IMG/VR virus record: IMGVR_UViG_3300045996_000691
Coordinates: 1-27,283 of that record
Origin: a virus
Direction: 5' to 3' (one strand)
Length of the DNA stretch: 27,283 nucleotides
The notes beneath the pieces are model-generated. The model was not told the origin of the DNA. It saw only the letters and a program-made list of their open reading frames with translations, and searched no databases. Of the stretch, positions 3,293 through 15,641 are shown in pieces (the first letter of the stretch is position 1; each line of letters begins with the position of its first letter). A program made the translations under genes and the position numbers.

Positions 3293-3369
3293 GGCCCGGT
3301 ATCCCAATCGGCAGAGGAAGCTGACTTAAAATCAGTACAGTGTGGGTTCGAATCCCACTCGGGCTACCA
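3293..3369 (+). tRNA. tRNA-Leu (TAA), class I body
   Basis: Seven-bp acceptor with G1-U72, anticodon loop CTTAAAA (anticodon TAA, reads UUA), T loop TTCGAAT, A73 and encoded CCA. The variable loop is only five bases, whereas bacterial tRNA-Leu normally has a long variable arm. Confidence 0.85.
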
Positions 3370-3844: not shown

Positions 3845-4080
3845 TGAATCCAATTGAAAAATACGCACAGGTAATACTGCATTCAGGGTGCAGTATTCCA
3901 CCTAAAGGTGAGCAAGAACCACGTAAGCATAAATGGGAAGAATGTAGAGCGCAAAAATTCTTCCTAAGAATAGCGTGCAAACATCAGCATAAATTACAAT
4001 CTAATGGACTTACAATAGGATACTGGATACGCGGAGACGTTGATCAAATCCTAGAAATGGTCAAAGGCAAGCTCCCGTAG
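3844..4080 (+). CDS. Hypothetical 78-residue protein ending inside tRNA-Leu
   Basis: A basic, Cys/His-containing protein (WEECRAQKFFLRIACKHQHK) of unknown function, coupled to the upstream gene by TAATG. Codons 11-18 form a perfect 9-bp hairpin in the mRNA (AATACTGCA at 3873-3881 with its complement at 3889-3897), which could affect translation. The stop TAG (4078-4080) is U8-A9-G10 of the following tRNA-Leu, so the last two codons also form tRNA acceptor stem. Confidence 0.65.
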   Translation: MNPIEKYAQVILHSGCSIPPKGEQEPRKHKWEECRAQKFFLRIACKHQHKLQSNGLTIGYWIRGDVDQILEMVKGKLP

Positions 4081-4146
4081 CCCAACGGTAGAGGCAATAG
4101 TTTCAAAAACTATACAGTATCAGTTCGAATCTGATCGGGAGTACCA
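4071..4146 (+). tRNA. tRNA-Leu (CAA), class I body
   Basis: Acceptor GCTCCCG pairs with CGGGAGT; anticodon loop TTCAAAA gives CAA (reads UUG); T loop TTCGAAT, A73 and encoded CCA. The variable loop is five bases (ACAGT), short for Leu. U8-A9-G10 is the stop of the upstream CDS, and the 3' strand CGGGAG lies where the next gene needs a ribosome site. Confidence 0.88.
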
Positions 4147-5206: not shown

Positions 5207-5283
5207 GGCCTCGTAGCCCAATCGGTAGAGGCGATAGCCTTAGGAGCTATTTAGTGAGAGTTCGAATCTCTCCGAGGCCACCA
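5207..5283 (+). tRNA. tRNA-Leu (TAG), class I body
   Basis: Acceptor GGCCTCG/CGAGGCC, anticodon loop CTTAGGA (TAG, reads CUA), T loop TTCGAAT, A73 and encoded CCA. The variable loop is five bases (TTAGT). This is the third Leu-anticodon tRNA here without a long variable arm. Confidence 0.9.
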
Positions 5284-11159: not shown

Positions 11160-12049
11160 ATTGGAAAGGATGGCTAATCAGGCTCCGATTAAAGAAACGG
11201 CCAGAGATTAGTATCCTGATGCCATTCACCAGCGATGAGTCCTACCGTCAGGAAGCTTTTAAATGGTTAAAAGAATACTGGAAATATGAGCTACCAGACG
11301 CAGAGTTTATTGTAGGTCGTTCTAATGGTAAGCCCTTTGTAAAGACTGAGGCGCTTAATCATGCTGCTAAGCGTGCTAATGGTAAAGTCTTTGTAGTACT
11401 TGATGCCGACGCTTTATTGTCGGGACCTGTATTAGAAATTTGTGCCAAAGATATTCTAGAAGCACTTAAATATGATCATCGTATATGGTATGTTCCCTAT
11501 CGAAACTTATATAGACTAAATAAGAATCTAACTAGAGCATTACTTCGATCTGATCCTAAAAGTTTTTCAGTATATGAATTAGAGAGAATTACTGATCAAT
11601 TAGATACCGATCCTCATGAAAGTCGATACGGTAAATCTTATGCGGCTATGGCGTATGTCATACCTAGAGAAGCCCTAAAAGTTATTGGTTGCTTTGATGA
11701 AAGATTCGATAAGGGATGGGGCGGGGAAGATGTTTCCACCCTTAAAGCACTAGATACTCTATGGGGAAAGCATAAGACTACAAATAATTATATTCTTCAT
11801 TTCTGGCACCCAAAGCTAGGTTCAGGATTTAAGAACAGAGCTTGGGAAGGTCAACAAGGCACAAACTCAGATATCTCTATGAGATACTATAGAGCAGGGA
11901 ATGATCCTGCTAAGATGAGACAACTAGTGTTAGAAGGTTGTGCCTATGGAAAAGAGAAGCATAAGTGCGACGGTAGACTCGGTAAGGCTAAATGCAAAAT
12001 CCGAGGATACTACAAGAAAATACGAAGCTTCCGTAGCTCAGCCCGGTAG
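11156..12049 (+). CDS. GT-A family glycosyltransferase ending inside tRNA-Phe
   Basis: A product of 297 residues. GT-A fold features: EISILMPFTSD at 17-27, a metal/nucleotide DxD in VLDADALL (D83, D85), and GWGGEDV (187-193) typical of the acceptor-side ED motif in GT2/GT7-like enzymes. The C-terminal tail is Lys/Cys-rich. Its GTG start overlaps the pyruvyltransferase stop. The last codons (SFRSSAR) and the stop TAG (12047-12049) lie inside tRNA-Phe, in its D loop. The pair may decorate virion proteins or remodel host surface sugars; I cannot choose between them. Confidence 0.82.
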   Translation: MNWKGWLIRLRLKKRPEISILMPFTSDESYRQEAFKWLKEYWKYELPDAEFIVGRSNGKPFVKTEALNHAAKRANGKVFVVLDADALLSGPVLEICAKDILEALKYDHRIWYVPYRNLYRLNKNLTRALLRSDPKSFSVYELERITDQLDTDPHESRYGKSYAAMAYVIPREALKVIGCFDERFDKGWGGEDVSTLKALDTLWGKHKTTNNYILHFWHPKLGSGFKNRAWEGQQGTNSDISMRYYRAGNDPAKMRQLVLEGCAYGKEKHKCDGRLGKAKCKIRGYYKKIRSFRSSAR

Positions 12050-12125: not shown

Positions 12126-12332
12126 ATGGCACACTACAAGCGTAAGCGCCCAAAGGAATATACTATACGGGATTGCGGATATCGTAGCTGCAAACAGGAC
12201 AAGGGCAAGCTTCAAAATCCTAACGGTAAGGACAGATATTTATTTAGACAATGGATGAGAGTACCATTTGAAGGTAAAAATCCTTGGAGGCATAAAAGAA
12301 ATGACATAGGCACGATACACGATTACAGTTAA
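12126..12332 (+). CDS. Hypothetical 68-residue basic protein
   Basis: ATG 12126 with GGAGGG five bases upstream. Very basic (HYKRKRPKEYTIRDCGYRSCKQDKGK), with a C-x5-C pair, probably nucleic-acid binding by composition. It overlaps the following amber-interrupted ORF by 32 bases in another frame. Family unknown. Confidence 0.62.
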   Translation: MAHYKRKRPKEYTIRDCGYRSCKQDKGKLQNPNGKDRYLFRQWMRVPFEGKNPWRHKRNDIGTIHDYS

Positions 12333-12537
12333 TGGTTATAAGGTTAAGCAGTGTAAAGAGGGTACACCTACAGCGTGTATTCGGATCGAAGATAAAGAAG
12401 ATAGTAGCGGAATGAAGTACGCTAAGTCTATCAAGATTGATGGACCAAGTAAAATTCTTCAAGCTGACTTTGATCCCGAGAATCCTAATAAACCTTTTAT
12501 TTGGATCGAGACTGACGGGCCAATAGAGTATGGCTGA
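12301..12537 (+). CDS. ORF with in-frame amber codon at position 3 (possible readthrough gene)
   Basis: Reads ATG-ACA-TAG, then 75 further sense codons (ARYTITVNGYKVKQCKEG ... FIWIETDGPIEYG) and TGA. GGAGG lies ten bases before the ATG. No other ATG, GTG or TTG is in frame until an internal ATG with no good ribosome site, so the protein-like N-terminal half is unreachable unless UAG is read as sense or a non-standard start is used. Its TGA overlaps the next gene's ATG (ATGGCTGA), as expected for a translated gene. A tRNA with anticodon CUA lies about 400 bases downstream. If not read through, it is a pseudogene by a nonsense mutation. Confidence 0.55.
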
Positions 12538-12730
12538 TATTGAAGTAGATAAAAAATGGATCGATGAGATTAAGAAAATTACCGATCCTAATGACTTAAT
12601 GAATGAATTAGCTATTCTACATTTAGAAGTACATGGTGTAGGTGATCCCTACTACCGCGACTTATATGAAGCAATTTGTGAAAGAGCTATAGAGTTAAGA
12701 GAAACTTATAATAGAAACAAGCGCCCTTAG
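12530..12730 (+). CDS. Hypothetical 66-residue acidic protein ending in the suppressor tRNA
   Basis: ATG 12530 overlaps the stop of the preceding ORF. Helical and acidic (VDKKWIDEIKKITDPNDLMNELAIL, YRDLYEAICERAIELRETY). Function unknown. Its TAG stop (12728-12730) is U8-A9-G10 of the CUA-anticodon tRNA, so the tRNA that may read UAG supplies this gene's UAG. Confidence 0.65.
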   Translation: MADIEVDKKWIDEIKKITDPNDLMNELAILHLEVHGVGDPYYRDLYEAICERAIELRETYNRNKRP

Positions 12731-12797
12731 CTCAATTGGTTAGAGCGGTCGCCTCTAAAGCGATGTGTTAAGGGTTCAAATCCCTTAGGGCGCTCCA
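12721..12797 (+). tRNA. Amber suppressor tRNA (anticodon CTA)
   Basis: A complete cloverleaf: acceptor GCGCCCT/AGGGCGC, D stem GCTC/GAGC with GG in the loop, anticodon stem GTCGC/GCGAT, loop CTCTAAA with anticodon CTA at 12755-12757, variable loop of five, T arm AAGGG-TTCAAAT-CCCTT, U73 and encoded CCA. U33 and A37 are normal. CUA pairs with UAG. The amino acid is not evident: U73, G1-C72 and C2-G71 resemble Gly acceptors, but anticodon-dependent synthetases would not see their usual bases. Confidence 0.88.
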
Positions 12798-15554: not shown

Positions 15555-15641
15555 GGGTCAGGTGAGCATGTTCGGTGCGCTCAGCGGTCTGTAAAACCGT
15601 GACATAGAAACTTGCTGGTTCGAATCCAGTCTGGCCCACCA
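15555..15641 (+). tRNA. tRNA-Tyr (GTA), class II
   Basis: Acceptor GGGTCAG/CTGGCCC, D stem GAGC/GCTC, anticodon stem GCGGT/ACCGT region with loop CTGTAAA (GTA, reads UAC/UAU), an extended variable arm as bacterial Tyr tRNAs have, T arm GCTGG-TTCGAAT-CCAGT, A73 and encoded CCA. Confidence 0.9.

Follow-up and report, generated by a model that had tools for sequence, protein, structure and literature searches.

A conserved amber codon near the start of a small phage gene, next to a tRNA with anticodon CUA, points to suppressor-dependent expression

The DNA analysed here, referred to as the window, comprises the 27,283 bases of the virus record IMGVR_UViG_3300045996_000691 and is itself a 27-kb fragment. 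At position 12301 it reads ATG ACA TAG, followed by 75 sense codons and a TGA at 12535-12537 (Table 1); we refer to this frame as the gated gene. A preliminary description of the sequence had stated that the ATG two codons before the UAG is the only usable start of the 75-codon frame, that a GGAGG lies upstream, that the end of the frame overlaps the start of the next gene and that a suppressor tRNA is encoded some 400 bases downstream. All of these features are present: the next ORF begins at ATG 12530, giving an 8-base overlap, and the tRNA(cta) found by ARAGORN at 12721-12797, one of 21 tRNAs in the window, lies 412 bases downstream of the gated TAG. No ATG, GTG or TTG occurs in the gated frame between the TAG at 12307-12309 and an ATG at 12412, and the ORF listing shows the frame only as a truncated 41-aa ORF (12412-12537). 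What had been missed is that the gated start sits inside the end of an overlapping ORF, 12126-12332.

Table 1. Positions of the gated gene and neighbouring features in the window
Feature	Positions	Strand	Basis and remarks
Upstream ORF, 68 aa, other frame, extending past the start of the gated gene	12126-12332	+	Similar ORF in L001 and L005; absent from L002
Shine-Dalgarno (SD) sequence GGAGG of the gated gene	12286-12290	+	Sequence; gap of 10 nt to ATG, 16 nt to TAG
Start codon ATG and Thr codon ACA	12301-12306	+	Homologues: GTG TCA, ATG ACT, ATG ACC
Gate, in-frame UAG at codon 3	12307-12309	+	TAG kept in 4/4 homologues although synonymous sites are close to saturation
Remainder of the gated frame (75 codons, then TGA)	12310-12537	+	Homologues L001, L002, L005; function unknown
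Next ORF, 66 aa	12530-12730	+	First 8 bases shared with the gated gene; terminal TAG inside the CUA tRNA gene
tRNA with anticodon CUA, predicted amber suppressor	12721-12797	+	ARAGORN; canonical cloverleaf, encoded CCA, U73

The stop TAGs of the ORFs ending at 12049 and 12730 each fall within the adjoining downstream tRNA gene (tRNA-Phe and tRNA-CUA, respectively), and tRNA genes may act as suppliers of UAG stops to the ORFs before them. A long variable arm is expected of bacterial tRNA-Leu. Three tRNAs with Leu anticodons (3293-3369, 4071-4146 and 5207-5283) are 76-77 nt long and have none, as is also the case in relatives, unlike the tRNA-Tyr of the window (15555-15641), in which the arm is long. 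Elsewhere in the window, an 818-aa ORF (149-2605) contains long runs of degenerate AQAQA/GYGQAQA-type repeats.

Homologues of the gated gene, which together with it make up our family A, were found in viral contigs (L001, L002) and by searching relatives sharing the terminase or capsid (L005), and come from different metagenomes. Protein identity among them is 61-65%, dN/dS is about 0.1-0.2 where computable and dS is 1.7 or more, with synonymous sites near saturation; as inferred from these comparisons, the frame downstream of the UAG is under purifying selection. The leaders of L001, L002 and L005 read GTG TCA TAG, ATG ACT TAG and ATG ACC TAG, and in all four leaders the start and a Thr or Ser codon are followed by TAG, never by TAA or TGA. 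Given the level of identity and the near-saturated dS, the start, the codon-2 Thr/Ser and the codon-3 UAG have been retained while silent positions turned over. A stop at codon 3 might in itself suggest a pseudogene, a fresh nonsense mutation or a sequencing error, but this UAG recurs in all four contigs, which are diverged and come from different metagenomes, and the codons after it are under purifying selection; practically no room is left for such an explanation, and the fresh nonsense mutation considered in the preliminary description is thereby excluded. That description had also named sense-codon homologues lacking a suppressor tRNA as the case that would refute its idea of a gene switched on by the suppressor. 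We looked for them, and the UAG was conserved at codon 3 in each close relative found; sense starts were seen only in a remote sister family, phrog_8676.

The linkage to the tRNA is conserved as well. In all four contigs the gated gene has a CUA tRNA no more than 0.5 kb away, but two types of tRNA (U73 and A73) are involved: L002 has a changed gene order and a CUA tRNA of the other type (A73 not U73, with a different D-arm), so the target persisted although the tRNA was not the same. Searches of relatives lacking a CUA tRNA, and of genome contigs, turned up no homologue of the gated gene. The co-occurrence of codon-3 UAG and CUA tRNA in 4/4 homologues thus supports a gene switched on by the suppressor, with the decoding itself inferred. 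In L005 (5533-5781) the gated homologue's own terminator is TAG, and further in-frame TAGs follow 2 and 4 codons on, into the CUA tRNA gene.

The overlapping upstream ORF offers another way past the UAG, namely a +1 frameshift out of that ORF, which overlaps in the right frame in the window, L001 and L005. In L002, however, the upstream ORF stops before the ATG, yet the UAG is kept. Frameshifting would also leave unexplained the conservation of the SD-ATG-Thr-UAG arrangement, the linkage to the tRNA and the two further gated families (B and C) described below, and we find it extremely improbable.

The position of the SD sequence bears on where translation starts. Across 59 distinct leaders of families A and B, the median spacing from SD to start codon was 7 nt, with 55 leaders within 4-11 nt, while the median spacing from SD to UAG was 15 nt, with none in that range; in the family A homologues of the window the SD lies 7-8 nt before the start codon. 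The spacing therefore fits the start codon rather than the UAG, so translation most likely begins at the ATG and must pass the UAG. Initiation at the UAG itself, also raised in the preliminary description, would have the UAG serve as start codon for an unusual initiator tRNA with a CUA anticodon. Such a start would agree with the alignment of the UAG in L001 and L002 with the initiator Met of phrog_8676, and with family B, where the spacing from the UAG to the protein is constant but the ATG lies at varying distances. Yet nearly every UAG is preceded by an in-frame start with an SD 7-8 nt ahead of it, the ATG or GTG is conserved together with a Thr/Ser codon 2 that shows synonymous change, and the SD is 7-10 nt from the start as against 13-16 nt from the UAG. 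The CUA tRNAs are, moreover, not initiator-like, as by inspection they lack the GGG:CCC anticodon-stem feature. Initiation at the UAG is accordingly disfavoured, and we regard it as quite unlikely.

Searches of Pfam, PHROGs, NCBIfam and PADLOC returned no function for the window protein, which itself had no hmmscan match to phrog_8676. A profile of its family, by contrast, matched seven members of the phrog_8676 group (hhalign 96.7%, E 4.7e-10). On the strength of this profile match the gated protein is inferred to be a remote homologue of that group, for which viral contigs hold over 500 matches; the function of the gated protein is unknown. None of the 80 phrog_8676 members checked has a UAG after the start. 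A structure model of the gated protein built from 71 relatives was compact (pLDDT 91.8), against a pLDDT of 49 from four sequences only, and a Foldseek search with the model retrieved no solved relative, only unnamed phage proteins. The UAG position is N-terminal of the first predicted strand, in a flexible region. In Bacteriophage DSS3_VP1 (L109), the gene immediately upstream of the phrog_8676-type gene encodes an RNA ligase 2, and this neighbourhood suggests a possible link between phrog_8676-type genes and RNA repair.

A CUA tRNA might instead signal reassignment of UAG throughout the genome (genetic code 15), the gated gene being one of many recoded genes. The features that define code 15 were tested and are not met. 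UAG is not avoided as a terminator: among homology-supported genes, TAG ends 8 of 22 in the window, 7 of 42 in G001 and 21 of 104 in G002, the other CUA-bearing phages counted, and 14-27% in CUA-lacking relatives. Nor are there many in-frame UAGs in conserved genes, as a screen of five CUA-bearing contigs for an SD-start-UAG arrangement yielded no other convincing gene besides the gated one, and a whole-genome comparison, whose output was made noisy by antisense shadow frames and translated tRNAs, contained no other conserved internal UAG among the matches listed. UAG is an ordinary stop in these CUA-bearing phages and the code has not been reassigned; that the gated gene belongs to a generally recoded genome is highly improbable. 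In sequence the tRNA has the make-up of an amber suppressor, being canonical with anticodon CUA; it lacks the reduced D-loop and the short variable loop that mark tRNA-Pyl, these loops being ordinary by inspection. The amino acid it carries could not be assigned from the nearest phage tRNAs by sequence, as these differ between CUA tRNAs.

We then asked how general the arrangement is by collecting CUA tRNAs in viral contigs by pattern and screening 32 ARAGORN-confirmed loci for start-proximal UAGs. The screen returned a family of about 190 residues (family B, with the motif FHFNKKHLED), a family resembling peptidyl-tRNA hydrolase 2 (PTH2; family C) and a few chance-looking frames. Profile comparison detected no relationship of family B to A or C. 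Searching for family B, we obtained 80 loci, in 77 of which the motif could be placed; in all 77 the UAG lies 10 or 11 codons before the motif, with an in-frame start 1-9 codons before the UAG. A CUA tRNA is found within the available contig DNA in 63 of these 77 loci, often as the only tRNA there. Family B also occurs in the cultured Rhizobium phage RHph_I1_18, where the leader reads ATG AGT GAG TTC ATG TAG. The assignment of family C rests on Pfam PTH2 (PF01981), matched by the L215 protein with an E-value of 3.9e-25 (88.7 bits against a cut-off of 23), the shorter L262-type protein falling below the cut-off.

Gated PTH2-like genes are present in 10 records of the annotated collection, cultured phages among them and all with a CUA tRNA. 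Their leaders are ATG ACT TAG (Acinetobacter phage ME3), ATG CTG TAG (Salmonella phage Arash), ATG ACG CAC TAG (Serratia phage BF and Erwinia phage SNUABM_19), ATG GCA CAA TAG (Cronobacter phage GAP32 and Pectobacterium phage CBB), ATG GCT CAC TAG (Kaldavass and XbC2), ATG AAA TAG (Tenacibaculum phage pT24) and ATG ACT CAC TAG (an uncultured 595-kb phage). The annotated records in which a gated gene was initially detected have a CUA tRNA in 11/11 cases; many such records are close kin, and the counts are not independent events. Six records carry an ungated homologue. By the pattern used, three of them (RaK2, S-CBWM1 and Atu_ph07) have no CUA tRNA, and the other three (Sinorhizobium phage Phosso, Xanthomonas phage XacN1 and Stenotrophomonas phage CM1) do. 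Of these, Phosso has another gated gene, a PTH2 with the leader ATG AAG TAT TAG (176491-176985 of the record, annotated from 176653). In Phosso (L313) family B and the peptidyl-tRNA hydrolase gene lie one gene apart, a layout that Atu_ph07 (L314) shares; this hints at a pathway common to families B and C.

In public annotation, gated PTH2 or PTH2-like genes are started downstream of the UAG or are missing (L360:14492-14986, which is PV764938.1, L315, L317, L316 and L327); the phages whose gated gene is missed or wrongly started in public records are BF, SNUABM_19, Phosso, ME3 and GAP32. The CUA tRNA of Salmonella phage Arash (L319:3807-3881) is labelled tRNA-Phe in its record. Stenotrophomonas phage CM1 encodes, besides its CUA tRNA, a tRNA that ARAGORN reads as having an ochre anticodon, UUA (L362:13612-13686), near which we saw no convincing UAA-gated gene.

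In the absence of protein or ribosome data, we consider it very likely that the suppressor tRNA and a single gene with a start-proximal UAG form a two-part module, in which expression of the gene depends on the tRNA. Ribosomes would initiate at ATG 12301 and reach the UAG at the third codon. If only host release factor 1 acted there, translation would end after two residues with no useful product, whereas once the phage tRNA(CUA) had been transcribed and charged the UAG could be read, in competition with release factor 1, to give the 78-residue protein. Output of the gene would then follow the ratio of charged suppressor tRNA to release factor 1, and the gene would remain silent for as long as the tRNA had not built up. 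Such a circuit would work like a coherent feed-forward loop, tRNA and mRNA both being needed. Because the UAG lies in a flexible N-terminus before the first strand, the inserted residue is probably unimportant and the codon serves as a gate. Decoding of the UAG by the CUA tRNA is strongly inferred from sequence, the charging of this tRNA and its activity on UAG being inferences too, and the gated gene is probably made only when the tRNA is present.

Gating calls for a UAG that is conserved and close to an SD-backed start, and both properties hold in family A (4/4) and family B (77/77). Counted against it are phages with a CUA tRNA but no gated gene in the stretches checked, namely L037 (no gated homologue visible, in an 18.5-kb fragment only) and XacN1 and CM1 (no gated gene in the 20 kb surrounding their CUA tRNAs), as well as the 14 of 77 family B loci without a CUA tRNA in the available DNA, several of which are cut by contig ends.

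Peptidyl-tRNA hydrolase acts on short peptidyl-tRNAs that have dropped off the ribosome. That one gated family is a peptidyl-tRNA hydrolase, and that the UAG stands only 1-9 codons from the ATG, would also suit a leader acting as a release factor 1 sensor or minigene (ATG-X-UAG), comparable to prfB autoregulation or the lambda bar minigenes, with abortive translation as the signal and the tRNA setting no more than a basal level. This remains conceivable but unlikely to us, as the tight link to the CUA tRNA makes suppression the simplest need and there is no direct evidence of sensing. Under suppressor-dependent gating, one may speculate that the gated hydrolase is a companion that offsets unwanted consequences of suppression or of short, abortive translation.

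Taken more broadly, it is probable that suppressor tRNA and start-proximal-UAG gene constitute a control module that is widespread in phages and was assembled convergently, acting as a natural feed-forward lock that gates at least three unrelated families, peptidyl-tRNA hydrolase 2 included, and that would explain why CUA tRNAs are kept in phages with an unchanged code. The module has so far been invisible because its genes are missed or wrongly started in public annotation. Our results supply candidate targets for phage suppressor tRNAs that previously had no identifiable target, and since these targets are conserved beside the tRNA, the question becomes directly testable, in cultured phages as well.

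Gating as proposed here would be a further form of stop-codon decoding by phage suppressor tRNAs, and we do not count it as code-15 recoding because the defining features of the latter were not met. In pyrrolysine decoding a dedicated CUA tRNA likewise reads UAG in a few genes, but the phage tRNA is canonical and not Pyl-like, and the ARAGORN label rests on the anticodon. An in-frame stop near the start also controls expression of prfB (RF2), where a premature UGA is bypassed by programmed frameshifting without need of a tRNA gene (PMC12421855), whereas the phage UAG is, by inference, read by a tRNA. Comparable too are the crAss-like, Lak and other phages of code 15, whose suppressor tRNA recoding has been proposed to control late genes (PMC9523058, PMC11210395). 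There a phage-encoded CUA tRNA reads UAG as sense, as is inferred for the gated module, but in the latter UAG otherwise remains a normal terminator and a single small gene carries it in frame, always next to the start. CUA suppressor tRNAs without recoding have been reported in XacN1, where target genes could not be identified (PMC5852040), and work on zeta crAss-like phages has asked why seemingly inactive suppressor tRNAs are kept (PMC12386605); the window phage has a conserved target adjoining its tRNA, unlike XacN1, which showed none in the 20 kb around its CUA tRNAs. We found no description of single-gene gating in the open literature, most subscription papers being outside our coverage. 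A further likeness is an engineered 'leak dampener' feed-forward loop, in which a suppressor tRNA is combined with amber codons, in one construct directly after the start codons (PMC7969014). In both, by inference in the phage case, expression depends on the suppressor tRNA and on the amber-bearing gene; that loop is man-made, while the phage module is natural and recurs in unrelated genes and, if our reading is true, would be a naturally occurring version of a control circuit described until now as engineered.
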